A DNA stretch of 64,000 nucleotides from Chryseobacterium wanjuense (GTDB lineage Bacteria; Bacteroidota; Bacteroidia; Flavobacteriales; Weeksellaceae): positions 62,001-126,000 of the forward strand of contig NZ_FOIU01000003.1 in NCBI RefSeq assembly GCF_900111495.1, read 5' to 3'. Below the pieces are notes generated by a model that saw only the letters and a list, made by a program, of their open reading frames with translations, searched no databases and was not told where the DNA came from. A program made the position numbers and the translations under genes. Below, piece after piece: positions 22,413-38,147 of this stretch (its first letter is position 1; every line of letters begins with the position of its first letter).

Positions 22413-22454
22413 TGTAAAGTTTATTAAGATTGTATCACTTTAAGAAAAATCACA

Positions 22455-23450: not shown

Positions 23451-24490
23451 AACTATCTTTTTATCTGCAAATTGTAATTATTATCATCTGCATCTTTTTC
23501 ATCATAAAAAGCAACAGGGATAGCAGGCCTGTGCAGCTTGATATTATTCTTTACTTTTTCTACTATGCCCTGCTTCACAATATTTATACTTCTATTGCCT
23601 ACTATATCTACTATCCTACCGAGAAGTTTTTTTTTATAGAAATAGGGGCACCTTTCGGAACTGCCTATGGGCTGCTTCTGTATTATGCCGCTTTAAAAAC
23701 CAGCGATAGGGCGAATATTAATATTAATCTGAAAATACACATTATTCCCATTATATTCTGGTTTTTGATGTTTTTTGCATTCTTTATCAGTGGGATCTAT
23801 GAGGATGTCCCGACCAGGAAACGGTACAACGGATTCCTTTATATGTATATGGTGCTGTCGTGGCTGTTTTATATTGTAAAACTTTATATCTTCCTTTACA
23901 AATCTACTGTTAATATAAAACTGAAGTCGATCCTCTCTACCATCTCCTACATATTGGGTTTTACAGCATGTGTTTTTATATCCTACCTGCTTTCTGTTAA
24001 AAAGTACAATAATGATTTTAAACGGACTCTGATATATCTTGCCTTTCTTTTCTGCATTATTGCTGCAATAAGGTTTTATCATTACAAAAAAAGCATACTT
24101 TCTGGTAAAGAACGGTCAAAAGATCAGAATCCGGAAGAAAACAGCGGCGATATATCCAATGAAGAAGAAGACCTGAAATACAAAGAACTGGTAAGAATTA
24201 TGGAATCTGAAAAAATATACCTTACTCCTAAGCTCACTGTTGCTGAAATGTCCAGAATTACCAACATCAGTCCTCCTATTTTAGCCGAAATATTAGCTCA
24301 AAGGAACCATACTTTTGTGACTTTTGTGAACTCGTACAGGATAAATCATGCTATCGAACTTCTTTCCAATACGGATCTTCCTATTGAAGATATTGCCTAC
24401 AGAAGCGGATTCAACTCCAGAAGCGCTTTTTATAAGCAGTTCATAAAAAATACCACCCGGCACCCAAGCGATTACCGGCCTGCATCATAA
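23447..24490 (+). CDS. Second membrane-bound AraC-family transcriptional regulator
   Basis: 347 residues. Six to seven membrane helices at about 1-220 (LSFYLQIVIIIICIFFII; HIIPIIFWFLMFFAFFIS; FTACVFISYLLSV), an acidic linker (NPEENSGDISNEEEDLK), then an AraC domain from about 250 (LTVAEMSRITNISPPILAEI; LPIEDIAYRSGFNSRSAFYK). Same architecture as the gene before it, with which it overlaps (ATGA at 23447-23450), but sequence identity looks low, so this is an old pair rather than a recent duplication. I infer the two may act together on the adjacent surface-protein genes; nothing in the sequence proves it. Confidence 0.87.
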   Translation: MKLSFYLQIVIIIICIFFIIKSNRDSRPVQLDIILYFFYYALLHNIYTSIAYYIYYPTEKFFFIEIGAPFGTAYGLLLYYAALKTSDRANININLKIHIIPIIFWFLMFFAFFISGIYEDVPTRKRYNGFLYMYMVLSWLFYIVKLYIFLYKSTVNIKLKSILSTISYILGFTACVFISYLLSVKKYNNDFKRTLIYLAFLFCIIAAIRFYHYKKSILSGKERSKDQNPEENSGDISNEEEDLKYKELVRIMESEKIYLTPKLTVAEMSRITNISPPILAEILAQRNHTFVTFVNSYRINHAIELLSNTDLPIEDIAYRSGFNSRSAFYKQFIKNTTRHPSDYRPAS

Positions 24491-24506
24491 TTCGGTCTAA
24501 AAATGA

Positions 24507-24839
24507 TTATGGGAACAGCTTTCTCCATCTGGCAATGGTATTTCTGCTTAGCTTAAAATGCCTGGAAACTTCGGAGTTATTCAGATGATGCTTTTTCTGA
24601 TAATTCAGAATCGTATTGATAGTTGCCTCATCATACGATTTATGCTGCTGGTTAAAGAATTCGGTATCTTTTTCGCCGTTACCAAAAATAATTTTGTTCA
24701 GTAAGATCACATCAAAAAGCAGTATTTCATCCTTCGCCAGAATTTCTCTGCAGTATTCCAGCTTATCAGGATGCTTAAGAGTAATGATATCGCAGAATAT
24801 CTTTTTATAATTGGGCTTGCTTTTTATTATGGGCTTCAT
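24507..24839 (-). CDS. Small helix-turn-helix protein, orphan transposase-like
   Basis: 110 residues with a basic start (MKPIIKSKPNYKKIFCDIIT), a middle region with LLFDVILLNKIIFG, and a C-terminal HTH: YDEATINTILNYQKKHHLNN, then SEVSRHFKLSRNTIARWRK. The HTH resembles the IS3/IS150-type transposase helper domain, but no catalytic partner or terminal inverted repeats lie nearby. Chryseobacterium genomes carry many copies of such small proteins. It is probably a DNA-binding protein of unknown role, followed upstream by a related gene in the same direction. Confidence 0.65.
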   Translation of the reverse strand: MKPIIKSKPNYKKIFCDIITLKHPDKLEYCREILAKDEILLFDVILLNKIIFGNGEKDTEFFNQQHKSYDEATINTILNYQKKHHLNNSEVSRHFKLSRNTIARWRKLFP

Positions 24840-24904
24840 CTACTTTAATATTTGAATATTTATAGGTGTCTGACTATCGAAAATGGAAATGCTGTTTTAT
24901 AAAT

Positions 24905-25351
24905 TCAAATCGTATCATCGTATTTGCTGATCCATTTATATAGTGTCGCTTTGGGAATTCCATATTCTTTAATAATTTCAGATTTAGTTTTCTCTTTATT
25001 GGCTATTCTTCCAAGTATAAACTCTATGATTTCTTTTGTATATATGTTTTTACGGAAAACGGGCAGTTTTGTATCTTTTACATTATCCGAAGCCGATGGG
25101 GCATAAAGAATTAAATGCTGGCTATATATCCTGAAAAAATCATATTCTAAAAGTTTACTCCACCGCAAAAGTATTTCACTGTTTATACCCGGCTGTGTAA
25201 ACATTTCCAATATTTTATCTTCATCTGTTTTAAGAAAATTGCATGTCCTTACCATATCTATATTCTTTTCTTCCCATCTTTCTCTGATAATATTCCCTAT
25301 ATGAATTTCTTTAAACTTAAATTTTGAATTGCCTTTGCTATTTTCAGCCAT
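24905..25351 (-). CDS. HTH protein, second member of the transposase-like pair
   Basis: 148 residues. An N-terminal HTH-like part contains IHIGNIIRERWEEKNIDMVR, then a conserved middle LLRWSKLLEYDFFRIYSQHL, ILYAPSA, and a C-terminal transposase-type HTH (KSEIIKEYGIPKATLYKWIS). It lies 65 bases upstream of the 110-residue HTH gene in the same direction, so they probably form a unit. The paired arrangement beside an accessory array suggests a regulator pair or a domesticated transposon remnant. Function unknown. Confidence 0.65.
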   Translation of the reverse strand: MAENSKGNSKFKFKEIHIGNIIRERWEEKNIDMVRTCNFLKTDEDKILEMFTQPGINSEILLRWSKLLEYDFFRIYSQHLILYAPSASDNVKDTKLPVFRKNIYTKEIIEFILGRIANKEKTKSEIIKEYGIPKATLYKWISKYDDTI

Positions 25352-25781
25352 TTTTCTAAATAATTTATTTAATTTGTGTTCTGCAGTGATAGTCTATTGG
25401 TAGGAAGTATCTTCCGGATATTTTTTACAATAATTTTAAGAATATTATTTTAATCCTCAACTTGTCCAAAAGTAAATATCTGATAGAGCGCATATAATAG
25501 TGCCGTCTTAACTCAAAATTTTCCCATTGCTGCAATTTATTAAGATTTATTTTTGGAGTAGAATAACTTTTTCAATACATCCTACTGTCGCAAAACCAAC
25601 TCCGGCAACCTATAAGGTCTGGCAGATAAAACAATAGGCTGAACATATGAGGGAATCCAGCCTAATTGTATTGAAATGAATTTTTTCCATCATTAAAGGG
25701 TATTTACCTTCATGTTTTAGAATCATATCACTTTGTTGAGATAAATTTACATTCTATTTTACACGCAAAAAAACAAATGTT

Positions 25782-25805
25782 GTATCATTTTCCCGAAAAC
25801 AGTAC
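25782..25805. promoter_or_regulatory. 24-bp inverted repeat, operator-like site A
   Basis: GTATCATTTTC, two spacer bases, then GAAAACAGTAC, an imperfect inverted repeat with 11-bp arms. It matches sites B, C and D in this window. No intact gene follows it for 435 bases. Confidence 0.5.
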
Positions 25806-26123
25806 ATATTTTATTAAAAACATTTCATTTGTTTCAATTTTCATCCGTCAAAATTACAGGGGTCTCCAAAAAACAAGTCTACTTTATGACTGATGAGAAA
25901 AAAAGAGACTATAAAAACATTACGATCTGCCATGTATAATTATTATTAGCAGGCTTTAGCATCATCGAAAAATCGGAACTTCAAAATATCTTCTGTAAAG
26001 TAAATTGTATCTACACTGAAAATTAATGCAAGGGATTTTTAAGGATGTAAAGATAATTTCCAGCCTTAATTAACATTCTTTATAAAATATTGACAATCTG
26101 CATATTAACCTCAAAAAACAACC

Positions 26124-26147
26124 GTATCATTTTCAGGAAAACGGTAC
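26124..26147. promoter_or_regulatory. 24-bp inverted repeat, operator-like site B
   Basis: GTATCATTTTC, spacer AG, then GAAAACGGTAC. It lies 92 bases upstream of the ATG of the first intact surface-protein gene at 26240, a distance suited to activation or repression of its promoter. Confidence 0.6.
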
Positions 26148-26239
26148 AACAATCTCTATTATCTGCTTAAAATTATATATATATTTACCATTATTCTTCG
26201 GTACTCAACTATACTTATAACCCCTAAAAAAACTAAAAA

Positions 26240-26977
26240 ATGAAACACCTCTGTACTTTACTCTTAAGCCTGTATGTATCGTTGATATTCTCCCAGGTAG
26301 GAATAAATACACCTTTGCCAAACGCTACGCTGGAGGTTACGGGACAACCTTCGGATATATTAAAAATGGATGGACTTATAGCCCCAAGAATAACCGGTGA
26401 TCAGTTGAGGGCAAAAACCTATACCACCTCTCAGAACGGAGCCATAGTATACGTAACGGCAAAAGATTCGGCACCATCCGGTCAAAGCGTCGAGGTATTG
26501 AACCCCGGCTATTATTTTTTTAATGGCGACAAATGGGTGGGTATGGCAACAAGCAACGCATTCGTTCCAAATGTTGTAGCAGCAGGAAGAAGCACAAGTA
26601 CCATTGTACAGAACAGCAGTACGAATTATACAAAGTGGAACTTTACCGTAACAAGAAATGATGGCAACTGGAATACAGCGACAAATTCTTATACAATACC
26701 GAGTAGCGGGTATTATCAATTATCTCTTTCAGGAAAAGTTATGCCAAATACTACGGGTAATGCCTTCACATGGCTAGTGATGTATGGAACAGAACGGTTT
26801 GACTATAGTAATTTTGTCAATTATGCAGCAAATGCAGAATACAACAGAGGTGGAGTTATTGTTTTATATCTAATACAAGGCACTGTAGTTCATTTCGGAG
26901 GCTTCCCCTGTACGGGTTGTACAGGTTCCTACACAGTTGGAGAAAGAACTTTCAGCATTGTTTCATTAGGATCATAA
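26240..26977 (+). CDS. Secreted surface protein with GINT module and C1q/TNF-like head
   Basis: 245 residues. Signal peptide ends LIFSQ. The shared N-terminal module follows: VGINTPLPNATLEVTGQPSD, then DGLIAPRITGDQLRAKTYT and GYYFFNGDKWVGM. The C-terminal 110 residues look like a C1q/TNF beta sandwich: SYTIPSSGYYQLSLSGKVMP, a middle strand GGVIVLYLIQGTVVHFGG, and last strand ERTFSIVSLGS, with a CTGC pair in a loop. Intact members of this kind are common in Chryseobacterium; binding partners are unknown. Site B lies upstream, and a weak ATCCCGG hairpin follows its stop. Confidence 0.75.
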   Translation: MKHLCTLLLSLYVSLIFSQVGINTPLPNATLEVTGQPSDILKMDGLIAPRITGDQLRAKTYTTSQNGAIVYVTAKDSAPSGQSVEVLNPGYYFFNGDKWVGMATSNAFVPNVVAAGRSTSTIVQNSSTNYTKWNFTVTRNDGNWNTATNSYTIPSSGYYQLSLSGKVMPNTTGNAFTWLVMYGTERFDYSNFVNYAANAEYNRGGVIVLYLIQGTVVHFGGFPCTGCTGSYTVGERTFSIVSLGS

Positions 26978-27310
26978 TAACGATAAAGCAACCAATCATT
27001 TATTATCCCGGCTTTACCGAGCTTTCATATATTCTTAGTACAAAACTGCGTATTGTTTATACCATAGACAGTGTCGTAAATTCAATATAGGTAAAACAGG
27101 AATAAATTTTCCACTTATCAATTACAGCCATTTGAAAAGCTGACAATTGCGACTACCGATCATGCACAACTAAAATGAATATTCAATACAATATCAATGG
27201 GTTGCACTTTTTTTCGGGTTGATAATAATTGTGAAGCATTTTTATTCCCTTAGCACCAACATTAAAAAAAGACTAATCTAACTCCATTTAAATTTATTAA
27301 AATTAAACTC
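26978..27310. other. Non-coding gap between surface-protein genes
   Basis: 333 bases. A short imperfect hairpin begins ATCCCGG at about 27004, resembling the stems at 33.8 and 36.7 kb, and could end the preceding transcript. I find no operator-like palindrome of the 24-bp type and no gene. Confidence 0.4.
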
Positions 27311-28078
27311 ATGAAACAAAAAACCTTATTCATTTCTTTCCTTTACCTGCTAGGATTCGGTCAATATGAATCTCAAATAGGCATCAATACAACCAATCCC
27401 CAGGGTACTTTCCACATCGACGGAGCCAAAGATAATGCCGCAACGGGAGTTCCTACCCTGGCACAGCAGGCTAATGATGTTGCAGTTACACCTTCCGGAA
27501 ATGTAGGAATCGGAACAGTATCTCCTTCCGTAAAGCTGGAAGTCACCAGTCCGGTTCTTTCCGGTGCGATCAAAATTGTTGACGGATCACAGGGAGCGGG
27601 GAAAATTCTCACTTCGGATGCCAATGGCGCAGGTACCTGGTCTTCAGCGGCTACAGCAACCAAAGCCATTGTAACTGCTACAAGTACTTCTACAGCAACA
27701 ACATCCGGCACGCAGGGAGTTTTCACCTATATTCCCTCTTTAAGAATCAACTTTCCTGTCTCGGGATATTATTCTTTAACGCTGAAACCTTTTGTTGTAA
27801 ATGCAGGTGCAGCAAGAGATACGGGAGGATATGTCGGGGGATTGTATCTTCGGAATACGGCAACTCTCGCAACGATCCAAATCGGAGTGGTTAATATTAA
27901 CCCGGGATGGCCTTATGGCGGATATGGCTATGCCTTTTCATCCTATCCTTTGGAGTACATCCCTGCCGGAAATTATGAGGTCGGTGTGATAACCCTGTCT
28001 ACGGCGTCTGCTCAGCAAACTACTTTTCAGTATACGCCTCCGGTAAATAGTGTGGTGGGAATACTGTCGGCACAATAA
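27311..28078 (+). CDS. Secreted surface protein, tandem paralogue 1
   Basis: 255 residues. Signal peptide (MKQKTLFISFLYLLGFGQYE), then IGINTTNPQGTFHIDGAKDN, the LAQQANDVAVTPSGNVGIGT block, and a linker with GAGTWSSAATATKA. The C-terminal 120 residues are a beta-sandwich head: FPVSGYYSLTLKPFVVNAG, GGYVGGLYLRNTATLATIQI, IPAGNYEVGVITLSTAS and a last strand NSVVGILSAQ. The next gene is its closest relative: 70 consecutive residues from NPQGTFHIDG to GSQGAGK are identical. I infer a cell-surface or secreted adhesin-like protein; the fold assignment is by eye. Confidence 0.75.
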   Translation: MKQKTLFISFLYLLGFGQYESQIGINTTNPQGTFHIDGAKDNAATGVPTLAQQANDVAVTPSGNVGIGTVSPSVKLEVTSPVLSGAIKIVDGSQGAGKILTSDANGAGTWSSAATATKAIVTATSTSTATTSGTQGVFTYIPSLRINFPVSGYYSLTLKPFVVNAGAARDTGGYVGGLYLRNTATLATIQIGVVNINPGWPYGGYGYAFSSYPLEYIPAGNYEVGVITLSTASAQQTTFQYTPPVNSVVGILSAQ

Positions 28079-28273
28079 GCCGGTATTTGTACCAACAGAC
28101 TGAGACAAATAATAATTGCCACCTCTTATTCAGATATATAAAGATCACAAAAGAATCCTTTTAGCTGGTAATAACATCAATTATGAAATATATGCGCTCA
28201 TCTGTATTATAAAACTAAGCTACCGCATATTCTAACGATTATCTCTCTTATATAACTTAAAAATATGACTATT

Positions 28274-29041
28274 ATGAAAAAAAGAATGCTATTTATTTCG
28301 TCACTTTACCTGTTGGGATTCGGCAGATATGAAGCTCAAATAGGTATCCAGACTTCAAATCCTCAGGGTACTTTCCACATCGATGGGGCCAAAGATAATG
28401 CCGCAACGGGAGTTCCGACTCTGGCACAACAGGCTAATGATGTTGCAGTTACACCTTCAGGAAATGTAGGCATCGGGACGGTATCGCCTTCTGTGAAACT
28501 GGAAGTGACCAGCCCGGTGCTTTCGGGAGCCATTAAAATTGTTGACGGATCCCAGGGCGCAGGGAAAGTGCTTACTTCCGATTCTAACGGAGTTGGCAGC
28601 TGGTCTCCGGCAGCTACGGCTATAAAAGCTGTTGTAACCGCTACAACGACTTCTACGGTAACAACATCCAGCACCCAGGGAGTCATTACCTATTTTCCGA
28701 CGTTAAGATTAGACTTTCCTGTCTCGGGATATTATAGCCTAAGCATTAATCCACATATTGTAGATGCCAGTACAGCGAGGGATCCTAACGGATATGTAGG
28801 AGGCTTGTATCTGCGGAATACAACAACCCTGGCCACCATTCAGATCGGGGCTGCCAACGTCAATCCGGGATGGCCTTATGGGAATTACGGATACAGGTTT
28901 GCCTCTTTTCCTTTTAAGTATGTGCCTGCGGGTAATTATGAGCTCGGTGTAACTACGCTGTCTACGGCTTCTGCCCAACAGAGTACTTTTGAGTATTATC
29001 TACCGATAAGCACAGTGGTGGCAGTACTGTTTGCACAGTAA
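28274..29041 (+). CDS. Secreted surface protein, tandem paralogue 2
   Basis: 255 residues from ATG 28274, chosen because it aligns with the paralogue's start; ATG 28265 in frame would add MTI. The signal peptide and module match paralogue 1 (QIGIQTSNPQGTFHIDGAKD). The head is more diverged: FPVSGYYSLSINPHIVDAST, GGLYLRNTTTLATIQIGAAN, VPAGNYELGVTTLSTAS and ends VVAVLFAQ. The first 70-residue block is identical in protein while the DNA differs at about two dozen third codon positions, so both copies appear to be under selection. A strong terminator follows. Confidence 0.75.
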   Translation: MKKRMLFISSLYLLGFGRYEAQIGIQTSNPQGTFHIDGAKDNAATGVPTLAQQANDVAVTPSGNVGIGTVSPSVKLEVTSPVLSGAIKIVDGSQGAGKVLTSDSNGVGSWSPAATAIKAVVTATTTSTVTTSSTQGVITYFPTLRLDFPVSGYYSLSINPHIVDASTARDPNGYVGGLYLRNTTTLATIQIGAANVNPGWPYGNYGYRFASFPFKYVPAGNYELGVTTLSTASAQQSTFEYYLPISTVVAVLFAQ

Positions 29042-29073
29042 TCTGTACCCTATTCATGTAAAATAGAAATAGT

Positions 29074-29106
29074 AATCCGCCTCGGAACCGAGGCGGATTT
29101 TTTTTT
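29074..29106 (+). terminator. Strong intrinsic terminator after surface-protein paralogue 2
   Basis: AATCCGCCTCGG at 29074-29085 pairs with CCGAGGCGGATT at 29088-29099, followed by a run of eight or more T. This is the clearest terminator in the accessory region. Confidence 0.85.
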
Positions 29107-29456
29107 ACAGTTAATCATCAGTAAAATAATATATCAAACTGATAATTGATCATCATTGAAAGCTATAGTCGCACGATGCCTGCAGTTTCTGAAATTTGAA
29201 TTCGCTTAATTAATCACAACTTATTTCAGCAATCAAGAATCTAGAAAATTTAATCAGTTCGACATTTGAATGCTATAAAACACAACTTTTTCTTCTCATT
29301 TTCTATACTGATCATCAAATAAAAAAAGTGAGACATATTCTAAATCAAACAAATAGAATATTTGCCAAATAAAACGCACGTGGCACTTTAGAGTCGGGCT
29401 CACAACAATAGCTCTGATCAATCTGTACACTTTACATCATAAATTAAAACTAAACC
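29107..29456. other. Non-coding gap
   Basis: 350 bases after the terminator. A+T-rich; no open frame of interest, no 24-bp palindrome and no repeat that I can see. Confidence 0.4.
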
Positions 29457-29798
29457 ATGAAAAAAAGCAAACCGACTATTATTCCGATGCTTATTATTAC
29501 TTTCCCCATTTACGCACAAGTTGGCATAAACACAGATCTGCAGATACCATTTCATATTGCTGGCAACAGTTTTAATGGATTACCATCATTATTGCAACAA
29601 GAAAATAAATCTGCTGTATGGGCCGGAGGAAATGTAGGGATGGAAACTTTTACATCCAGTCCGAAGCTAAGGGAGAGGTTAGGAAAAAATGGAATTTTCT
29701 GTGTAGAACGCAGCCATACCATTAAAGATGTAGTTCCGAATATAGCTCAGTTCGGTTTTGGTGTAGCAGAGAATGTATTATATCAAGAAAATGTATAA
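29457..29798 (+). pseudogene. Degenerate member of the GINT surface-protein family
   Basis: 113 codons. Signal peptide (MKKSKPTIIPMLIITFPIYA), then QVGINTDLQIPFHIAGNSFN and LPSLLQQENKSAVWAGGNVG, METFTSSPKLRERLG. This follows the family pattern GINT-PQ-TFHIDG, LAQQANDV, GNVGIGT-SP-KLE, but with many non-conservative changes. The head domain is replaced by an unrelated 40-residue tail. I judge it a truncated, decaying copy, although the frame itself is open. It ends 3 bases before the stand-alone AraC gene. Confidence 0.55.
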
Positions 29799-29801
29799 GC
29801 T

Positions 29802-30161
29802 ATGATGACCAATATTACAAAACAAAAGCTGGTTGCTAAGCTTGACGAATTTGAAAAATCCGGCCTTTATCTTAGAACTAACTTTTCTCTTTCTTATCTT
29901 ACTATGTATTGTGAAACAAACAGCAAATATATTTCTTATTTGATTAAAACCTATAAGGGCAAGGATTTTAATAATTACATCAATGAACTCAGAGTGCAGT
30001 ATATTCTAGAAAAACTTCGTACATGCCCACATTATAAAAATTATAAAATGTCTACCCTGGCTTCGGAGGCAGGTTTTTCATCACCCAATAAATTTTCTAT
30101 GATTTTTAAAAAGCATACTTCATATTCACCTTCTATTTTTATAAAGTGCATGGATAAGTAA
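29802..30161 (+). CDS. Stand-alone AraC-type DNA-binding domain, copy 1
   Basis: 119 residues, no sensor domain. First HTH: NFSLSYLTMYCETNSKYISY; linker FNNYINELRVQYILEKL; second HTH: MSTLASEAGFSSPNKFSMIF, ending KKHTSYSPSIFIKC. This is the C-terminal DNA-binding half of an AraC-family regulator, close to those carried by TPR-AraC sensors in this genus. It starts ATGATGACCAATATTAC, the same as its copy at 37.4 kb. Directly preceded by a decaying surface-protein gene. Either a true small regulator or the surviving end of a larger one. Confidence 0.7.
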   Translation: MMTNITKQKLVAKLDEFEKSGLYLRTNFSLSYLTMYCETNSKYISYLIKTYKGKDFNNYINELRVQYILEKLRTCPHYKNYKMSTLASEAGFSSPNKFSMIFKKHTSYSPSIFIKCMDK

Positions 30162-30282
30162 ATTGCAGAATTAGAATTTAGATATAGCAGCGGGGATATT
30201 ATTGATCAAAATTTGTTCTAGTATTTTAAAGCAAGTAAAAACAATTATAAAAAGTAAATCCTTAATTTATAATCAGCTCAAT

Positions 30283-30329
30283 TTCGCCGGTTTTTTGTTT
30301 CCAAACATAGTAATCAACAAACCGGTGAA
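30283..30329. terminator. Hairpin after AraC copy 1
   Basis: TTCGCCGGTTT at 30283-30293 pairs with AAACCGGTGAA at 30319-30329 across a 25-base loop. Plausible terminator for the AraC gene. The 30162-30464 gap otherwise has only the next hairpin. Confidence 0.4.
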
Positions 30330-30368
30330 GTGATATTTTGAAGCTAATAAATTATTTTTAATCAATTT

Positions 30369-30406
30369 AAACAGACTTTAAATTTTAAAATATCTAAAGT
30401 CTGTTT
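30369..30406 (-). terminator. Hairpin downstream of the minus-strand surface-protein operon
   Basis: AAACAGACTTTA and TAAAGTCTGTTT form a 12-bp stem with a 14-base loop, about 60 bases past the stop of the gene ending at 30465 and before A/T runs on both sides. It could work in either direction. Confidence 0.5.
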
Positions 30407-30464
30407 TGTAAATAATTTTTGCTCCAAAGAGCATACGTATTCCTAATGACTAAATGCTTTATTA

Positions 30465-31451
30465 CTATAATTTTGTAATGGCCAAATTACCTAAAGAGAT
30501 AATATCACTTGTATCACCGTTATATTGAGCTCTTATCCTGAGTTTATCCCCTGCATTTAGATTCCCGGTCCAGAATAAACGGTTCCCATTATCAACATCA
30601 TTAAATTGTGCCACACTGATATCTGTGATCACTTTTGTCCAACCAATTCCACCATCTGTACTTTTTTCGACATGCATCATTGTCCAGAAAGCTGAAGTTG
30701 AGGTAGTGCTGGCGGTATGAGTATTGGCTATCTGAAAATTAAAAGTGTAGGTTCCTCCCATATTGGCAGGTACTGTGAAAACATTATTCGTCCAGGTATT
30801 ATGTGGGTCATAATTTTCAACGGTAAACTGAACTATTGTCAGAGCATTTATACTCCCTGCTATATTTTGATTTCCTGGTACAGAAACACTTATTACCTGT
30901 TTAGGTATGCCTAAACTGGAAGTCGGCAGAGGAGCCCATACCGTACCATTGAAGGCAAGCAAATCATTTGCTATGGGAGCTGCAGCAGAAAGAGGTTTTC
31001 CCTGCAGGGCGGTAACTGCGGTTGTGTTACTGTTGGCTGCCGCCGTGACATCTCCGCTAAGGGCGGCTCTCTGGAAGGAAATCCCGTTCAGAGGAATGGA
31101 AACTGAGCCTGTATGTTCGGTCACTGAAAATCTCTGCCAGACATTCCCATCAAAATAATAATAACCCGGTACTGTAATATTAACAGTTTTAGGGGACGAA
31201 ATACTTACTGCAGAGGATGCATAAACAATCGCACCGGCAAGTGTACCGGTGTACTGTGTATCTGCCAACTTAATCTGATTACCTGTAAGGCGGGGAGCGA
31301 TAATGCCTTCGGGTCTGCTGCCGTCCGTGGTTTTTGCGACGATATCCAGAGTAGCTTTAGGATCTGCACTGTTGATTCCGATCTGTGCCAAAATGAATGT
31401 GCCCGGCAGTGTAAGTACAGATACAAGCATTTTTTTAAAGAATTTTTTCAT
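30465..31451 (-). CDS. Secreted surface protein with tail-fibre-like middle and C1q-like head
   Basis: 328 residues from ATG 31451 (MKKFFKKMLVSVLTLPGTFI); a longer frame from TTG 31514 lacks a sensible signal peptide. Module: QIGINSADPKATLDIVAKTT, EGIIAPRLTGNQIK, GYYYFDGNVWQRF. The middle, ALSGDVTAAANSNTTAVTAL then QGKPLSAAAPIANDLLAFNG and TVWAPL, is a pattern familiar from phage tail-fibre and other trimeric surface proteins. The head (TYTFNFQIANTH, AFWTMMHVEKS, NAGDKLRIRAQYN, SLGNLAITKL) looks like a C1q/TNF beta sandwich. It follows the 31501 gene with a 49-base gap, probably one transcript. Confidence 0.75.
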   Translation of the reverse strand: MKKFFKKMLVSVLTLPGTFILAQIGINSADPKATLDIVAKTTDGSRPEGIIAPRLTGNQIKLADTQYTGTLAGAIVYASSAVSISSPKTVNITVPGYYYFDGNVWQRFSVTEHTGSVSIPLNGISFQRAALSGDVTAAANSNTTAVTALQGKPLSAAAPIANDLLAFNGTVWAPLPTSSLGIPKQVISVSVPGNQNIAGSINALTIVQFTVENYDPHNTWTNNVFTVPANMGGTYTFNFQIANTHTASTTSTSAFWTMMHVEKSTDGGIGWTKVITDISVAQFNDVDNGNRLFWTGNLNAGDKLRIRAQYNGDTSDIISLGNLAITKL

Positions 31452-31500
31452 TTTTATCAATTTAGTTAGTTTTTTTATAGATGGTTTTACATCTTTCAAC

Positions 31501-32241
31501 TTAAAACTCTTCAAGAATCATGGATTCCTTTATTCCGGATACATCGGAAAGTGTGCATGTAAATCGCAATATAGCTCCCGTTTCAAGGTCATATACATGA
31601 TACACATTATATTCATCGGCACCGCCAGCATAATTGTCGTCCAGATTAGTCCACATATTCGGAGTTATACTCTTTACAGTTCTTTTCTGGTATACAGTTG
31701 CAGATGTACCAACCCCATTTTGCCCCCAATATTCAACATCCCAGATATTAAAAGCTCTTGTTACTCCATTATTCACTTTGATCTGCCATTCCCCTCCAAC
31801 AGTTGCTGTTCCGGTATAGCGAAAAGAATATGCTCCTGAACCACTATTAAGGACAAACGAGGGACTTGCACTAACCATTTTCTGCTTAGTTACAGAAACT
31901 CCTGCAGATTCTGTATTCCCCGAAATTATAGTCCCGTTTGCATCCGTAGCCAGTATCGCTGCAGAAGGCAGCTTAGTAAGCCTGACACCGGAAGAATTGT
32001 TTATACCGCTGTTTACTTCCAGGTTTTCCGCAGGAACAACTGTTCCTACCCCTAATTTTCCTTGCGGAGTAATGACCACATCATTAGCCTGCTGTACCAA
32101 AGTAGGAACTCCGGTTGCGGCATTATCTTTAGCTCCATCAATGTGGAAAGTACCCTGAGGATTTGAAGTATTAATGCCAATCTGGCCGTTTACAGGGCTA
32201 AATAAGCAAGATGCTGCCAACATGAAAAAAAGTTTAGACAT
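31501..32241 (-). CDS. Secreted surface protein, GINT module with distinct beta-rich head
   Basis: 246 residues. Signal peptide ends SPVNGQ. The module IGINTSNPQGTFHIDGAKDN, AATGVPTLVQQANDVVITPQ and GKLGVGTVVPAENLEV is nearly the same as in the plus-strand paralogues. The head is unlike theirs: SGAYSFRYTGTATVGGEWQI, WDVEYWGQNGVGTSATVYQK, VYHVYDLETGAILRFTCTLS and ends ESMILEEF. Shared stem plus different head implies swapping of heads on a common base. First gene of the minus-strand pair. Confidence 0.72.
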   Translation of the reverse strand: MSKLFFMLAASCLFSPVNGQIGINTSNPQGTFHIDGAKDNAATGVPTLVQQANDVVITPQGKLGVGTVVPAENLEVNSGINNSSGVRLTKLPSAAILATDANGTIISGNTESAGVSVTKQKMVSASPSFVLNSGSGAYSFRYTGTATVGGEWQIKVNNGVTRAFNIWDVEYWGQNGVGTSATVYQKRTVKSITPNMWTNLDDNYAGGADEYNVYHVYDLETGAILRFTCTLSDVSGIKESMILEEF

Positions 32242-32586
32242 AGTTTTGTATTTAGTTTTATATGTTATAATGAGAACTATACAGAAAGGATTTCAAGCCG
32301 TGCTTTTAAGAATACATTTTGGGATCATGAGGATCATTCTTCAAAAAAATATTAGAACGATTATCTTTTCCAATTAACGTACGCTGAATATCAAAGAACA
32401 GCAATTGTATTTTTTTATAATTGAGGAAGACATCAAATCACATCAGATAAATACAATTTAATATCTGAGCCTTATAAAATTTTTACAAATAAGAAAAGTG
32501 TGATGTCCAAAGAATACCTAAAATAGATAGCAATGCAAATGCGTTGCATCTACAGCAGTTATTGACATAGAAAAAGTTTTATTTTT
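32242..32586. other. Non-coding gap between two minus-strand surface-protein genes
   Basis: 345 bases. A short inverted repeat (ATGCAA/TTGCAT at about 32533-32549) lies just past the stop of the 32587 gene and could be its 3' end. I see no gene and no 24-bp operator copy, although the 32241 gene must have a promoter here. Confidence 0.35.
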
Positions 32587-33327
32587 TTAGCGGATTAACT
32601 TTACAGCCATTGATACTTTTTGGGCAATGCCGGCAGCGGCAGCAGGGTTAAAAGTATCGCTCAGAAACAACGATATAACATCACCGGAATTCAGAGTGAA
32701 GAAATTAGTAGTAGAGACATCCGTTCCCATTGAAGCTATAGGTGAACCATAATGAGGAGAAGCTATCTCGGTTCCATTCTTACGTATTGACCAAGTTGTT
32801 AAATAAGGACTGGTAGTGCCTTGTGACCAGCCACTTATAGTAATTTCGTAAAGTCCGGAAACAGGTACACTTACGGTATCAGCTGTTATATCCACGGCTC
32901 CTCCCTGCCCGACAACAGTTCCTGCTGTAAAATCTATTTTACTGGGTACTGTAGTGGCTGCTCCTGCCCTCAGCAAGCCTAACCAAGAACCTGCTAACGC
33001 ATTCCACGTTCCTACTCCATTAGCATCACTCATAAGGACCTTATTAGCACCTTGGGTTCCGTCTGTTATTTTAATAGCACCATTTACATTGCCATTGTTA
33101 ATGTCAAGTTTTTGAGCAGGTACAGTAGTCCCTATTCCTACACTTCCAGCAGAGGTAATGATGACATCGTTAGCCTGTTGCAAAGAGCCTGGAACTCCCG
33201 TTGAAGGATTGTCATTGGCTCCGTCTACATGGAAGATATTCTGAGGGTTAGGTGTATTTATACCAACCTGAGAAAATATAAATAAAGGAGCAATAATAAA
33301 GCTTAAGGTAACAAATTTTTCTTTCAT
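32587..33327 (-). CDS. Secreted surface protein with C1q/TNF-like head, downstream of operator C
   Basis: 246 residues. Signal peptide ends LFIFSQ. The module reads VGINTPNPQNIFHVDGANDN, GSLQQANDVIITSAGSVGIG, then KITDGTQGANKVLMSDANGV. The head is the most C1q-like of the set: VSVPVSGLYEITISGWSQGT, TTWSIRKNGTEIASPHYGS, TNFFTLNSGDVISLFLSD and MAVKLIR as last strand, the order seen in C1q-like jelly rolls. Site C lies 57 bases upstream of the ATG, with TTACTTTG, close to a -7 element, between them. Confidence 0.78.
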   Translation of the reverse strand: MKEKFVTLSFIIAPLFIFSQVGINTPNPQNIFHVDGANDNPSTGVPGSLQQANDVIITSAGSVGIGTTVPAQKLDINNGNVNGAIKITDGTQGANKVLMSDANGVGTWNALAGSWLGLLRAGAATTVPSKIDFTAGTVVGQGGAVDITADTVSVPVSGLYEITISGWSQGTTSPYLTTWSIRKNGTEIASPHYGSPIASMGTDVSTTNFFTLNSGDVISLFLSDTFNPAAAAGIAQKVSMAVKLIR

Positions 33328-33384
33328 ATGTTATTTTAACAAAGTAAAGATATATGAAAGCATGAATATAGAAAAACACTAGTT

Positions 33385-33408
33385 ATACCATTTTCAAGAA
33401 AATGATAC
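33385..33408. promoter_or_regulatory. 24-bp inverted repeat, operator-like site C
   Basis: ATACCATTTTC, spacer AA, then GAAAATGATAC. Read on the minus strand it is GTATCATTTTC-led, like A and B. It lies 57 bases upstream of the ATG of the minus-strand gene ending at 32587. Confidence 0.6.
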
Positions 33409-34210
33409 CTTTAAAAAACTTCATTTACAATCGATATTGATTTCTTAATTATAATAGGAATCTTGTAAAGATCACTTTCTTCTGGTAACAGAACAATGTA
33501 ACTTTCTAAAGCTTATTCATAATCTACCCCTTACCTGCTCCCTCATTGTTTTGGAACATTATCAGTCTAAGCAGAATTAGTACTCCGATTGTGTTTATTT
33601 TTGATTATTGTATGATGATAATGTGACCAATAAAGTCAAACATAGACGTGATTTCAAAATTATTGAAAAGATTGCAGAGGCAGGGGGAAAACCTGCGCTC
33701 TGCAATCAAAAGAAACCATGAAAACTCTAATAGTTTCAAATTGTTCTGTTAATATCAATTTGAAACTTAACAATTAAATAAAACTGAGATTTTTCTGAGT
33801 CAAAAACTATATATATTACAATTTGTTCAATTAGTAAAAAATCCCGGTAGGTTTAACCTTCAAATATTACTACCGGGATACAACTAACCATTGGACGAGA
33901 GTTACTCTTATAACTTTTTTGGATCTAATCTGCTCGAGGTTTCATTATTTAACAGCTATCTACATCATTCTCCCTGATTTGCAATTCATTTAGTTATAAT
34001 GCATTCAGTTGCTTCCGTTCATTCTTTTTTCCCATATTCAGCACATTCAAACATCATCAATATTGTTTTATTTTTACTGATTTCCAGTTTACTTACACTA
34101 ACAACTGAAATAAGATTATTTTTTGCTAGTCAGATTAATGATTTATGTTCAAGTTTCAAGCTTAATCTGTAGACAAGAATAGGAAAGAATTTTCACGCTT
34201 AAAAACGATA
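33409..34210. other. Gene-free stretch with three consecutive hairpins
   Basis: About 800 bases with no credible open frame. Three inverted repeats follow one another: GATTGCAGAG/CTCTGCAATC (33670-33707, with an inner GCAGG/CCTGC pair), AGTTTCAAATTG/CAATTTGAAACT (33732-33767) and ATCCCGGTAG/CTACCGGGAT (33841-33880). They could be terminators of lost genes or a structured RNA. Nothing else is recognisable before site D. Confidence 0.4.
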
Positions 34211-34240
34211 GTGTTACCATTTTCCTTAAAACGGTAACAC
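34211..34240. promoter_or_regulatory. Extended 30-bp inverted repeat, operator-like site D
   Basis: GTGTTACCATTTTC pairs with an AAAACGGTAACAC right arm around a 3-base centre; the outer eight bases GTGTTACC/GGTAACAC are perfect. It contains the same CATTTTC core as sites A to C. The nearest start downstream is the decayed signal-peptide gene at 34339. Confidence 0.55.
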
Positions 34241-34338
34241 TACTGCTTTTTTCATACTAAAGTTCGGTGTAATTTTACCCTGACCATTTTAATAACCAAA
34301 AAAACTAAAATTAAAAAACTAATAATATTCAATACATC

Positions 34339-34479
34339 ATGAGAAATCCCAAAATTCCAATACGTAAGATTCGTTCTGTTTATTCAGACTTTTATTTTTT
34401 AGGTTTCTTTATCTCAAAATAACAATTCGCAGTTGCGCAAAACTATATCGTCTTACTCTTCAAAGCACACGTCATTTGA
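34339..34479 (+). pseudogene. Decayed signal-peptide gene behind operator D
   Basis: ATG 34339 encodes a basic start (MRNPKIPIRKIRSV), a hydrophobic core (FYFLGFFIS), then TAA at 34420, and in the same frame QFAVAQNYIV, resembling a signal cleavage site (VAQ), before a second stop at 34477. No module or head domain follows. The leader before the ATG (AACCAAAAAAACTAAAA) resembles that of the 26240 gene. I infer the 5' end of a lost member of the operator-controlled set. Confidence 0.4.
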
Positions 34480-34625
34480 GGAATATCCTTCCTAAACATA
34501 CACTAAATACATGATTACAATGATGATATTATTAAATCATTGGAATAAGCGATGAAGAATGAAGAACGGACCAGGTGTTTCAACATCCGGGAATTATCTT
34601 AATTAACAATAAAAAACACATATCA

Positions 34626-35213
34626 ATGAAATCAATTATCCAGATTATACTGTTAGTATTTTTCAGCTTTCTTTATGGTCAAAAGAGTCTTAAAAACATA
34701 TTAAAAAGCAATAATATCATTGAAATAGAGACTTTTCTAAAAGCAGCACATCCTGATGATCCGAGGAGGAATATTTTGAAAAAAAAACTTATAGATCTTA
34801 AAAATTCATCATGGACAAAACCGGGAATTGGTCCGTCAATGGCGGCCCGGCCGATTGTAAATAATGCAGAATTTTATGTGGATGAAGAAAAAGAAGAGTT
34901 TGACCTTCTGATTTCGGAGACTTCCAATCAGCATAAAGAAAAGACCGTCCAGTTACTAAACGCATTATTTGCCACCGATCTAGAAGGAGAATCAGCAACC
35001 TTTCTGATACAAAACAGAACAAAATGTAACATCATCTTACGAATACAGCCGAAAACAGATGATAAGATAGTATATAACCTAGCAGTGAAAGGGCAAGCAG
35101 AGAATTTCATTACTTTAAAGAAAGGACAATACTTAATCAAAGGAAAAATATGCGGTCAATTATACAGCAGTGAAAAAGAACTCAGTAAAAGCCTTCTTAT
35201 AGAATTAAAATAA
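34626..35213 (+). CDS. Secreted protein, DUF6759-like
   Basis: 195 residues from ATG 34626 (MKSIIQIILLVFFSFLYGQK), a clear signal peptide; an upstream frame extension to 34575 lacks one. The N-terminal part is helical (SLKNILKSNNIIEIETFLKA, DDPRRNILKKKLIDLKN), the C-terminal part a compact beta domain: FLIQNRTKCNIILRIQPKTD, YNLAVKGQAENFITLKKGQY and KGKICGQLYSSEKELSKSL. This pattern agrees with my memory of DUF6759, a Chryseobacterium family of unknown function; treat the number as tentative. It lies inside the accessory array but lacks the GINT module. Confidence 0.65.
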   Translation: MKSIIQIILLVFFSFLYGQKSLKNILKSNNIIEIETFLKAAHPDDPRRNILKKKLIDLKNSSWTKPGIGPSMAARPIVNNAEFYVDEEKEEFDLLISETSNQHKEKTVQLLNALFATDLEGESATFLIQNRTKCNIILRIQPKTDDKIVYNLAVKGQAENFITLKKGQYLIKGKICGQLYSSEKELSKSLLIELK

Positions 35214-35580
35214 AAGCAGGACAGGTGTATATGTCCTTTCAAACCAGCTTGTAGAAGTAAAAATATTTAACTTGAAAAAAACACGATTCTTTAAAATGCA
35301 TTGATGACACCAGGAATAGCAGAAGTTATTTCTTCTGCTATAGATCCTGGGGCTTGAGAAAACTGACTGAATTATTTATAAACTATAATACATGATAAAC
35401 AAAATGCCCCCAACACAATTAAACACCTGTAAACAAAATACTTACATTTTTCAAAACAGTCTATTCCAGAAGAAAAATAGTAATGAGTTTTCCCTTGATT
35501 AATCAATTCTTTGTTAATGAAAAAATTGTCAGTCGAACAAATATTACTTCACAACCCTCAGATTATAAAATACCTTACAA
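35214..35580. other. Non-coding gap with a long hairpin
   Basis: 367 bases. AGGACA/TGTCCT at 35218-35237 follows the previous stop and may terminate it. A longer stem, CCAGGA-ATAGCAGAAG pairing with CTTCTGCTAT-TCCTGG, spans 35310-35350 around a 6-base loop and has no T run after it. A degenerate CATTTTTC/AAAACAG sequence near 35450 loosely resembles the operator but with shorter spacing. Confidence 0.45.
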
Positions 35581-36585
35581 ATGAAAAATAAATTTACCTT
35601 GAATATTGCAGCAATGCTTTTAATATCAACAAATTTTTATGCGCAAGACGGAAGAATAGGAATCAATACCCCAGATCCCAAAACAACATTAGACGTAAAC
35701 GGTAAAACGGATGCTTCCGGAAATGTCCTCACTATGGATAAAACGGGTCTGCAGGCACCACGACTGACCCGTGCGGAACTTACAGCCAAGGGAAATACGT
35801 TGTATGGTGCTGACCAGAAAGGAGCATTGGTTTACATTACAGATGTCTCAGGAGGAGATACTTTAGATCAGAGAACAAATATTACGACCATTGGTTATTA
35901 TTATTTTGACGGCAGTATATGGAACGGGTTAAAAAATAATACAGCTTCTTATACACCAGGAGACATCAAGCATTCTGTAAAAGCAGCAGACCACGACGGA
36001 TGGTATCTTCTGGACGGGCGAACAGTCTCCAGCCTTCCCGCGAATGCTCAACTAGCAGCAAATAATTTGGGGTTTACCGTCAATATTCCCGATGCCACAA
36101 ACAGGGTTCTCAAAACGAAAACTTCCTTAGAAACTCTTGGCACGACAGGCGGCAGCAATACGCTGAATATTGCCCAAACCAATCTGCCTAATATTAATTT
36201 ATCTGGCTCCATATCGGGTACGGCTCAAGCAAATGGTGATCATTCTCATGCTTTTAGTGCCACAACATCATTGGCGGGAATCCATGCACATGGGCCGATA
36301 GCTGGAACCGGGTTCTTATTAGGAGGGACTACCATAGGTAATAATGGCACAGGAAATTATCAGGGAAACGGTCTGCAAAGTTCGTGGGGAGGTGTAGGTC
36401 TTGGGGGCGCAACAGCAAATGCCGGAAACCACACCCATACTCTCTCCGGAACTACGGCAAATACCGGTTCTCATACGCATACTGTAAGTGGAACGACAAC
36501 AGTATCTACCGGAGGAGCTAATACGGCCATGAATAATATGCAAGCATATCTGGTTGTTAATACTTTCATTTACCTTGGTCTATAA
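35581..36585 (+). CDS. Secreted protein with GINT module and phage tail-collar domain
   Basis: 334 residues. Signal peptide ends FYAQ. The surface-protein module follows: GRIGINTPDPKTTLDVNGKT, TGLQAPRLTRAELTAKG and GYYYFDGSIWNGL. From about 135 the sequence turns into a tail-collar (Collar/tail-fibre) domain: PGDIKHSVKAADHDGWYLLD then GRTVSSLP and NIPDATNRVLK. A Gly-rich region follows with paired histidines GDHSHAF, GIHAHG, GNHTHTL and GSHTHTV, and the ending NNMQAYLVVNTFIYLGL. In phage short tail fibres such HxH pairs bind metal ions in a trimer. I infer a trimeric, metal-bound surface or secreted adhesin. Confidence 0.8.
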   Translation: MKNKFTLNIAAMLLISTNFYAQDGRIGINTPDPKTTLDVNGKTDASGNVLTMDKTGLQAPRLTRAELTAKGNTLYGADQKGALVYITDVSGGDTLDQRTNITTIGYYYFDGSIWNGLKNNTASYTPGDIKHSVKAADHDGWYLLDGRTVSSLPANAQLAANNLGFTVNIPDATNRVLKTKTSLETLGTTGGSNTLNIAQTNLPNINLSGSISGTAQANGDHSHAFSATTSLAGIHAHGPIAGTGFLLGGTTIGNNGTGNYQGNGLQSSWGGVGLGGATANAGNHTHTLSGTTANTGSHTHTVSGTTTVSTGGANTAMNNMQAYLVVNTFIYLGL

Positions 36586-37068
36586 GAAAGTAAAAACTGT
36601 GGAGATTGCTTAATGGAATTCACAGACATCAGCAATTAATCACATAAGTAGGATAAGATTACATTTTTTTAATTAATGTTCCTCATCCCGGTGTAAGGTT
36701 AGATTTTATCCTCCAGTACTTTTCATCACCGGGATGTTTCTTAGTTCATTTTGTAAGCAGAGGTTTTTCCACAATACACCTGTTTTCAAAACCGATGTCA
36801 CGATTTATATTTGAAGTTTATTGGTACACTTTATTTGGCGTGGTATTGATGACCACCTATTGATGTAATCTTCCCATGACTTGCTCTGATATCTGCAGAT
36901 GCTGTCCTGAATTTAATCAATAAAAAAATGAAGCTCCTATTTGTTCAAATTTCAATAATAAAGAACAGACAGTCAAACATTTAATCTGACTAACATCACA
37001 TTTCATCGTGACGTATATCATCTTATCTTCAACAGGGTTTGCTCACCTTTGAAAAAACTTATAACAAA
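36586..37068. other. Non-coding gap with a CATCCCGGTG hairpin
   Basis: 483 bases. CATCCCGGTG at 36684-36693 pairs with CACCGGGATG at 36727-36736 across a 33-base loop, about 100 bases past the collar-protein stop. The same ATCCCGGT stem occurs at 33841. No T run follows. No gene seen; no clear promoter for the next gene. Confidence 0.45.
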
Positions 37069-37380
37069 ATGAAAACACATGTAGAATTACAAAAAGATGT
37101 TCAGGATACCATGACATGGGAGCCTTTGCTGAATTCAGTAGTAATCGGAGTAAAAAAACGGCAGGCAGAACATGCTGTAAAAAATGTTTTGAGAGTAAAG
37201 GCTTTAGTGGAAAATATTGAAGACAGGCTACCCCATCCACAGTCAAAAAATGATATAGAAATTGTCGGTAAATTATTGCTGTATTTAAAGCAATACGTCC
37301 CAGAAACAACCGAAATTTCGATTTTGAAATTCGACATGAACACCACCATAAGTACAAATTTTAAGACAATTCTGATATGA
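37069..37380 (+). CDS. Small BON-like protein with internally deleted domain
   Basis: 103 residues from ATG 37069. MKTHVELQKDVQDTMTWEPL then LNSVVIGVKK is the start of an OsmY-type BON domain, and RQAEHAVKNVLRVKALVENI matches the later part of the same domain. The usual middle strand-loop (DGVVTLSGTV and a following helix start) is missing between them, an in-frame loss of roughly 15 residues. A second, diverged half follows (SKNDIEIVGKLLLYLKQYVP). BON proteins are periplasmic or cytoplasmic stress proteins; no signal peptide is visible here. Its stop overlaps the ATG of AraC copy 2. Possibly decaying. Confidence 0.45.
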   Translation: MKTHVELQKDVQDTMTWEPLLNSVVIGVKKRQAEHAVKNVLRVKALVENIEDRLPHPQSKNDIEIVGKLLLYLKQYVPETTEISILKFDMNTTISTNFKTILI

Positions 37381-37757
37381 TGACCAATATTACAGAACAA
37401 AAGCTGAGTGCTAAGCTGGAAGAATTTGAAAGATCCACCCTTTATCTTAAAAATAACTTTTCTATAGCTTATTTAGCCGTATACTGTGGAGTAAACAGCA
37501 AATATCTTTCTCATTTGATAAAGAAACACAAGAACAAAGATTTTAACAACTACATTAATGAACTGAGAATAAACTACATCATAGATAAACTTCGGAAATG
37601 TTCACATCATAGAAATTATAAAATAGCAACTTTGGCTGAAGAAGCAGGTTTTTCCTCCCCAAATAAATTTTCCGCGGTTTTTAAAAAACACACTTCATTT
37701 TCACCTTCTTTTTTTATAAAATGCCTGGAGAAAAAACTTCCTGAATATATAATTTAG
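37377..37757 (+). CDS. Stand-alone AraC-type DNA-binding domain, copy 2
   Basis: 126 residues. Aligns end to end with the copy at 29.8 kb: same start (MMTNIT-QKL-AKL-EFE), first HTH NFSIAYLAVYCGVNSKYLSH, linker KDFNNYINELRINYIIDKLR, second HTH IATLAEEAGFSSPNKFSAVF, ending KKHTSFSPSFFIKCLEKK. No sensor domain. The ATG overlaps the stop of the BON-like gene by four bases. Duplicated small regulators bracketing part of the surface-protein array are likely linked to it, but no target is shown. Confidence 0.72.
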   Translation: MMTNITEQKLSAKLEEFERSTLYLKNNFSIAYLAVYCGVNSKYLSHLIKKHKNKDFNNYINELRINYIIDKLRKCSHHRNYKIATLAEEAGFSSPNKFSAVFKKHTSFSPSFFIKCLEKKLPEYII

Positions 37758-38147
37758 ACGTAAACTATGAAAAACACAATGACAGAGATAGGAAAAGATT
37801 ACAATTTTTAATAAATGTTGCTTGCCTGATAAAGAATCAGACGGAAACGGATACAAGGTGGAAAAAACTTTTTCCGGCTTGATAAATTGTATGTAAACCT
37901 GAGTTCGTGATAAGACATTTCTGTTTTTAATAAGGTAAGGAAGCCTGAAGAAGGAAATTATTGAGATCACAAAAAATAATTATATTTTGGTTTTGATTAA
38001 TTTTCGTAACTCTGACTAATTCAATTGTAAGAAACTATCACTCTAATAGTAACTTCAAGCCTCCCTCTTCCAGCTTCCGCCATATTAATCTTAATTTTTT
38101 AACTCATATTAAAGTATATTCTGTAAACAGCTATAATACGCAGCCTA
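37758..38147. other. Non-coding gap closing the accessory region
   Basis: 390 bases. A small GGAAAAA/CTTTTTCC palindrome at about 37860-37875 could stop the AraC transcript. The remainder is A+T-rich with no gene or repeat I recognise. Ordinary core genes begin on the right. Confidence 0.4.

Follow-up and report, generated by a model that had tools for sequence, protein, structure and literature searches.

A stretch of 64,000 nucleotides of Chryseobacterium wanjuense DNA (NCBI RefSeq assembly GCF_900111495.1, contig NZ_FOIU01000003.1, positions 62,001 to 126,000 of the forward strand; hereafter the window) carries an array of genes for secreted proteins that share an N-terminal base and differ in their C-terminal heads. 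The array probably belongs to a MAT-like, tip-swapped repertoire of secreted fibres under an AraC-type regulator, MAT (mosaic adhesive trimer) fibres being surface proteins of Bdellovibrio bacteriovorus. Seven family genes are intact (26240, 27311, 28265/28274, 30465, 31501, 32587, and 35581, named by window position), and each encodes a signal peptide, a base with a GINTxxP motif, and a head of its own, which confirms what the original prediction from the sequence had described; the signal peptides end before Gln. Its interpretation as a trimeric surface-display or secreted lectin-like set with head exchange is partly supported by the present analysis. Beyond that prediction, the family was found to be genome-wide, the locus accessory, and some of the genes preceded by a putative shared operator-promoter.

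A Genome-Wide Family with a Conserved Base

A profile built from seven rows gave 92 matches in 49 clusters at E ≤ 1e-3 in the genome (4.67 Mb, nine contigs). Eighty-eight of these fall within 83 open reading frames (ORFs) and the remaining four in none. At least one family gene (C3:36207, by contig and position) escaped the profile, so the family counts are lower bounds. Most of the ORFs are short, with 67 of 83 between 210 and 440 residues long. The motif pattern is fitted by 80 of the 83, and in 79 of these 80 a Gln lies no more than six residues before the motif, as expected under the Q-rule of Bacteroidetes, by which cleavage by signal peptidase leaves Gln at the new N-terminus, where it is cyclised (PMC5837995). 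Type A bases have the consensus FHIDGAKDN...GVPT..QQ.ND...G..GxGT..P with two GI[NG]TxxP repeats, and type B bases TLDV...GIIAPRLTGDQ...GALVYVT...GYYYFDG.W; a crude sorting rule assigned 22 of the 80 ORFs to type A, 37 to type B, and 21 to neither. In a sample of 39 genomes, the present one included, matches were found in all 23 other congeners (2–47 each, lower bounds) and in 3 of 15 genomes of other genera. The base is thus a real family module and not low-complexity sequence, which upholds the module as first proposed.

Within the array, the bases of 27311 and 28265 are 96% identical over 80 residues, and both match that of 31501 at 78% over 58 residues, while the head of 31501 has no BLAST match to the heads of 27311 or 28265 at E 1e-4. 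For the pair 27311 and 28274, the module gave a nonsynonymous divergence (dN) of 0.044 and a synonymous divergence (dS) of 0.80, compared with 0.199 and 0.96 for the head. In this pair the base seems to be held constant while the tip varies. Since synonymous divergence is about equally high in both parts, conservation of the module looks like purifying selection rather than recent copying. Inversion-type phase variation and recent gene conversion were rejected: direct repeats of 300 nt are 83% and 78% identical and the best long inverted repeat 79%, and no long near-identical repeats were found in the locus.

Heads and Their Exchange

The heads begin ∼95 residues after the start of the base by the split used. 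Clustering by BLAST of 79 heads (from the 83 ORFs, three without the motif pattern and one too short) gave 26 clusters, the largest with 44 members. Many family members match phage tail-fibre families. The head of 27311 was modelled, at low confidence, as a TNF/C1q-type lectin fold that matches soluble TNF-like lectins, and that of 32587 matches BclA_C below the curated cut-off; the predicted C1q/TNF-like sandwiches are thus weakly borne out for these two, and the heads of 26240 and 30465 have no assigned fold. The distinct β head anticipated for 31501 was recovered as a different β fold that matches only viral models, mainly of tail fibres; no TNF-fold family is among its listed matches, which in itself proves nothing. 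The collar-type head proposed for 35581 matches phage families (phrog_2097, E 1.5e-9; phrog_4618, tail collar fibre, E 0.002), and PF07484 itself was not matched in the Pfam scans.

Recombination between heads and bases is evident when the array is compared with its counterpart in a congener, G032. The G032 gene 17072 is 80% identical over 116 residues to its neighbour 18180, the orthologue of 35581, yet has a different head. Intact copies of the 17072 head class occur on two further bases in the present genome, at C1:857704 (67% over 138 residues) and C1:859156 (59%), so that one head class is carried by three different bases. The base of C1:857704 is in turn 72.5% identical over 80 residues to that of 30465, and the heads of these two do not match. 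A decayed copy of the same head class stands in the window at 21978–22232. It corresponds to the last 85 residues of the 17072 head (88% identical by tblastn; 83% at the nucleotide level over 260 nt), lies inverted at the opposite end of the locus relative to 17072, and is 62% and 58.5% identical to the heads of C1:857704 and C1:859156, respectively. A further fragment of the class was observed at C3:34702–34821 (46.5% over 43 residues). The remnant at 21978–22232 (the tail at 21975 of the original prediction) and 29457, a truncated module, are the decayed members that it had named correctly. The tail at 22260 gave no match by tblastn. The proposed decayed member 34339 was rejected: no family protein matches it by tblastn, and its segment is conserved before the DUF6759 gene in G032 too.

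These chimeras support the head exchange that had been proposed, and recombination over evolutionary time may join an existing base to another head, leaving displaced heads to decay as orphans. Ordinary birth and death of paralogues, with the few chimeras incidental and no tip-swapping mechanism, is the strongest competing explanation, though an unlikely one. It would account for 29457 and the orphan heads as decay products and agrees with the lack of long near-identical repeats in the locus. Moreover, five pairs of positional orthologues between the window and G032 keep their heads, with 68%–78% identity over nearly the full length, for which reason exchange between bases is read here as occasional. 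The finding of one head class on three bases, and the decoupling of base and head identities in several pairs, are not readily explained by birth and death.

Relationship to MAT Fibres

A profile of 82 members (the 83 ORFs without a 74-residue fragment) was compared with the sequences of the PDB. Only two matches were obtained at E ≤ 0.01, to 8ond (Bd2133, E 5.8e-13) and to 8ojn (E 0.0018), the latter with no single stretch that passes on its own. The second entry is Bd3182, and both proteins are MAT fibres of B. bacteriovorus (PMC10769870). As single sequences, 27311 (E 1.7e-5) and 32587 (E 4.9e-5) also match 8ond; 31501 and 35581 alone gave no significant match to PDB sequences. The stretch of Bd2133 that aligns with 27311 contains a GxGxxxP repeat, which would correspond to the capping loop of the MAT fibres. 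These fibres are described as trimeric β-helices with capping loops and tips that include TNF-like, C-type-lectin, and S74 domains, and in one pair the N-termini are 75% identical and the C-termini exchanged (PMC10769870). Given the homology of the shaft and the mosaic C-terminal tips, seen here as 26 head clusters and as chimeras, the array and its family are best filed as a MAT-like variant, as far as sequence can tell.

On this reading, the island would encode some of the short secreted fibre-type proteins that make up a repertoire spread over the whole genome. Each is predicted to consist of a Sec signal peptide cut before Gln, a base with the GI[NG]TxxP repeat of trimeric β-helix fibres, and, as its C-terminal tip, one of a set of β folds that includes phage-tail-fibre and TNF/C1q-lectin types. 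The proteins would most likely form trimers outside the inner membrane, either surface-bound or released, and the tips may bind glycans or proteins on other surfaces. Models for type IX sorting domains exist in NCBIfam. At 1e-3 the 82 members matched five NCBIfam families, none of them a sorting domain or an anchor.

The same result is compatible with soluble secreted lectins or matrix or biofilm proteins that are released rather than displayed and serve a nutritional or matrix role, as are the short length of the proteins and the match of one head to soluble TNF-like lectins. Surface display of the homologous Bdellovibrio fibres (PMC10769870) argues the other way, and the conserved base, with its low dN in one pair, suggests a common docking or assembly role. 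Release of this kind is rated improbable, slightly below birth and death.

A Putative Shared Operator-Promoter

A 24-bp palindrome, approximately GTAYCATTTTC-NN-GAAAATGRTAC, was found four times in the window (at 25782, 26124, 33385, and 34214) and in none of 100 shuffles. With up to three mismatches it is found at six places in the genome, all on contig C3 and five of them in or beside fibre loci, compared with one for the reversed control. A weight matrix built from 12 sites and run over fetched regions of the same genome gave 13 new hits above 9 bits, where 5.7 were expected from the shuffle model. For five of the 13 (C1:651570, C1:651518, C1:858865, C1:861333, and C3:35765) a family gene begins no more than 450 bp downstream.

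The position of the palindrome relative to a putative promoter is fixed. In 17 of 19 sites a TAnnTTT box begins exactly 32 bp downstream, while at random places a box anywhere between 20 and 42 bp is found in 10%. The 19 sites include those of family genes, two DUF6759 genes, two TPR-AraC genes, and the 25782 site; their direction was chosen by the neighbouring gene, and the last G of TAnnTTTG was not required. In flavobacteria the −7 box of primary-sigma promoters reads TAnnTTTG (PMC9723704). The two exceptions are 25782, where the box is on the other strand, and C1:856080, which has none. When palindrome core and box were combined in an exact pattern, nine matches were found in the genome and one for the reversed control. 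In seven of the nine the palindrome stands 58–231 bp before a family gene, C3:36207 included; the other two are the minus-strand site at 25782 and one that looks like chance. The bare core TTTTCNNGAAAA was rejected as a marker, being unspecific (108 places against 55 for its reversed control).

A palindrome site of its own was found for each of the G032 orthologues of 27311, 30465, 31501, and 32587. In another genome, G050, three family genes located next to a TPR-AraC gene and a pair of helix-turn-helix (HTH) genes are preceded by the palindrome-box design, and a fourth match lies inside the TPR-AraC gene. The intergenic segment 25626–25808 of the window shares homology (79% and 75%) with two fibre-gene promoters of G032, and no fibre gene reads from it here. 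Because one of these is the promoter of the 31501 orthologue, the 25782 site is perhaps a displaced promoter relic.

Several family genes would be expected to start from a promoter of this design, with a −7-type box of the flavobacterial kind following the palindrome after exactly 32 bp. If neighbouring genes are co-transcribed, which is a guess, 26240, 27311, and 28265 could all be read from the 26124 site, and 32587, 31501, and 30465 from the 33385 site. A strong terminator-like hairpin at 29074–29099, directly 3′ of the 28265 gene, may mark where the first of these three-gene transcripts ends. That the palindrome is a terminator or RNA hairpin rather than an operator is very unlikely. The stem at the 34214 site does reach 16 pairs, and its minus strand has a terminator-like score; against this, the palindrome lies upstream of the −7-type box at a constant distance and so outside the transcript of the downstream gene, and an Rfam scan of 21–39 kb of the window gave zero matches.

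Candidate Regulators

The AraC genes reported among the array were confirmed by matches to HTH_18. Two of them, 29802 and 37377, are solo DNA-binding domains, 55%–58% identical to the DNA-binding part of the TPR-AraC proteins found in other loci, which combine TPR repeats, an AraC domain, and a signal-peptide-like start and are probably membrane sensors. With a subfamily cut-off set after the data had been seen, a family gene was found no farther than 3 kb from 7 of 10 subfamily members (p 2.6e-6), compared with 7 of 55 other AraC genes (p 0.17); without the two of the window, the count is 5 of 8 (p 1.8e-4).

Among 30 TPR-AraC loci, 26 contain palindrome sites scoring above 12 bits; among 30 loci of the HTH-pair gene, 3 do, the window included. 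In 19 of the 30 TPR-AraC loci two palindrome cores stand 51–53 bp apart around the end of the gene, and in an alignment of 18 of these 19 loci with the present genome the paired cores lie upstream of a conserved −7-type box. They are followed by an intact family gene in L122 and, by eye, by the remains of one in L123, L127, and L128; in most others none was seen. Across the TPR-AraC loci L122–L140 of other genomes, the paired cores and the box persist around and after the AraC stop codon in many species even without an intact family gene, which might reflect a small RNA or a target since lost.

The likely binder of the palindrome would be the adjoining AraC subfamily, represented by the TPR-AraC proteins in other loci and by the two solo domains in the island. 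Sets of fibre genes could be switched on when an AraC-type protein acts at the palindrome in response to a signal, the sensor perhaps being TPR domains that lie outside the inner membrane.

The transposase-like HTH genes of the original prediction proved to be short HTH proteins. The match of 24905 to HTH_Tnp_1 clears its cut-off narrowly (24.6 against 24.1 bits), and 24905 and 24507 gave HTH matches and weak unrelated ones, with no transposase catalytic domain. The genome has six copies of 24905, five of them within 3.5 kb of a family gene (p 3.5e-5); without the window, the figures are four of five (p 3.2e-4). Family ORFs were found no more than 1.5 kb away in 9 of 29 HTH loci and in 5 of 29 TPR-AraC loci of other genomes, with ∼2% estimated from family density. 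Relatives of 24905 occur in all 40 genomes searched, this one included, in 1–18 copies each and often beside family genes. A regulator and a mobility factor are both candidates for its role.

Assessment of the Proposed Repertoire

Several observations weigh against a fibre repertoire under common control. The operator stands directly upstream of only two of the seven intact genes in the window, and 8 of the 13 new matrix hits have no family gene within 450 bp downstream. In 59 other genomes the exact pattern gave 99 matches against 47 for the reversed control, so that about half may be chance or other conserved sequence. Among 34 distinct exact sites, from loci of 30 other genomes, nine lead into a family gene, one of them judged by eye and another, in G040, having also fed the weight matrix. 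Many of these sites lie at the 3′ end of a TPR-AraC gene and are not followed by an intact family gene. Of eight other genomes with a near-full palindrome, three (G065, G029, and G039) have neither a family gene nor a TPR-AraC gene adjoining it; in G029 a TPR-AraC-like ORF lies ∼2.4 kb from the site. The low count of TPR-AraC loci with a family ORF close by and the late choice of the subfamily cut-off belong here too, as does the absence of a matched anchor or sorting domain. As regards structure, a mean pLDDT of 63.9 makes the model of 27311 weak, and in that of 31501 the base was predicted poorly, with blocks of 46–58 over residues 11–110. Two heads are without a fold, and the orthologous pairs keep theirs.

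A bolder form of the proposal, a dedicated tip-swapping fibre system with dozens of base-plus-tip genes, a set of them under one operator design read by TPR-AraC membrane sensors and solo AraC domains, and spread on islands, is put forward as tentative, with somewhat less than even confidence. If it is true, Chryseobacterium would hold a coordinated recognition repertoire outside predators, with a logic like that of the prey-recognition fibres of Bdellovibrio, larger, and under a common sensor-regulator. MAT fibres are described as recognition tools of a predator (PMC10769870), and a larger, partly co-regulated homologous repertoire in a common genus would make mosaic fibre recognition a wider bacterial strategy. 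The exact geometry of the operator-promoter offers a route to the regulon, the identity of the regulator, and the inducing signal.

The Array as an Accessory Island

A close relative of the AraC protein 23447 (E ≤ 1e-40) is present in 2 of 173 congener genomes, the present one and G032. The window from 22404 to 36590 is broadly collinear with the G032 locus. Outside this part, comparison of ORFs of at least 120 residues with the G032 flanks (17–18 kb on each side) gave one weak match at 26% and 37377, which matches a solo AraC gene inside the G032 locus. That locus has three further family genes on its left and two collar-type bases and is without 26240 and the second 27311 copy. The locus is therefore not identical in all strains, in keeping with the original prediction, and its distribution suggests an accessory island. 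Naming relatives of the locus through AraC returned only four weak, uninformative loci. A second fibre island was seen in G050 (contig C3, L205:4442–14728), where a TPR-AraC gene and the HTH pair are grouped with family genes, three of them behind operator-promoters and three others. Domesticated or remnant phage tail-fibre genes are the least probable source of the array: many members match phage tail-fibre families and the 31501 head matches viral models, but Gln-type signal peptide ends are found on 79 of the 80 motif ORFs, no phage gene was recognised beside family genes in the scans made, tblastn of 27311 against 50,697 phage records gave zero matches, and the family occurs in every other congener sampled.

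The features of the island are listed in Table 1. The 28265 gene runs from the first ATG, or from 28274 if its paralogue is taken as the guide. The 30465 ORF extends to 31514 from a TTG; the ATG at 31451 fits the signal peptide better. The DUF6759 gene, inside the fibre array with an operator-promoter of its own, is among the better conserved island genes, with 77% identity to its G032 relative.

Table 1. Features of the island, in window coordinates
Feature	Position	Strand	Remarks
Orphan decayed head without base	21978–22232	−	Head class of G032 17072, C1:857704, C1:859156
Pair of AraC-type regulators	22455–23450, 23447–24490	+	Hydrophobic N-terminal halves; C-terminal HTH_18, Pfam E 6e-15 and 3e-16
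Pair of short HTH proteins	24507–24839 (110 aa), 24905–25351 (148 aa)	−	HTH_28/HTH_Tnp_1
Operator palindrome 25782–25805 and −7-like box 25743–25749	25743–25805	−	Perhaps a promoter relic (see text)
Operator palindrome 26124–26147 and −7-like box 26180–26186	26124–26186	+	Spacing 32 bp
Family gene, base type B, head without assigned fold	26240–26977	+	
Family gene, base type A with two GI[NG]TxxP repeats, TNF/C1q-type head at residues ∼115–255 (weak model)	27311–28078	+	
Family gene, paralogue of 27311	28265–29041	+	Base 96% identical, head 69%
Truncated family member, base module without head	29457–29798	+	42% over 77 aa to 27311
Solo AraC-type DNA-binding domain protein, 119 aa	29802–30161	+	HTH_18 E 3e-10
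Family gene, base type B, head without assigned fold	30465–31451	−	
Family gene, base type A, distinct β head at residues ∼115–246	31501–32241	−	
Family gene, base type A, weak BclA_C (C1q-like) head	32587–33327	−	
Operator palindrome 33385–33408 and −7-like box 33346–33352	33346–33408	−	Upstream of 32587
Operator palindrome 34214–34237 and −7-like box 34270–34276	34214–34276	+	Upstream of DUF6759 gene; segment conserved in G032
DUF6759 protein, signal-peptide-like start, within array	34626–35213	+	Pfam E 8e-25
Family gene, base type B, phage tail/collar-fibre-type head	35581–36585	+	
Second solo AraC-type DNA-binding domain protein, 126 aa	37377–37757	+	71% identical to 29802

Comparison with Known Systems

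A literature search for Chryseobacterium tail fiber, S74, and secreted C1q proteins gave, apart from one lectin review, nothing recognisable as the family from titles and the openings of abstracts; it did not extend to the supplementary lists of other bacteria in the MAT paper (PMC10769870), the main text of which contains no word beginning Bacteroid-. Trimeric autotransporter adhesins of the YadA group resemble the family in that YadA head repeats occur in 1 of 82 members. Matches to autotransporter models came from one family member each, and the other members match no such model at E 0.001. With the TNF-like lectins BC2L-C and PLTL the sequence identity is 9%, and here the domain is joined to the base of a fibre. 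Phage tail fibres and the endosialidase (S74) chaperone group share similar repeats and several heads with the family, S74 being found in 2 of 82 members. In contrast to these, the proteins described here have Sec signal peptides and are encoded on the chromosome, and no tail genes were recognised beside the array.

The closest likeness is to the MAT fibres. Both have a signal peptide and a homologous shaft repeat and, as far as the base can be likened to the MAT N-domain, a conserved N-terminal part, followed by C-terminal tips of many folds, including TNF/C1q-like and S74, and in both there are chimeras with exchanged C-termini. The differences are in architecture, number, and regulation. 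In the Chryseobacterium family the repeat motif that opens the base comes directly after the signal peptide, and most of the ORFs (67 of 83) are 210–440 residues long, whereas MAT proteins typically have ∼1,000. The repertoire comprises 83 ORFs, compared with 21 proteins in Bdellovibrio, and several of its genes share an operator-promoter and lie near AraC and HTH genes.

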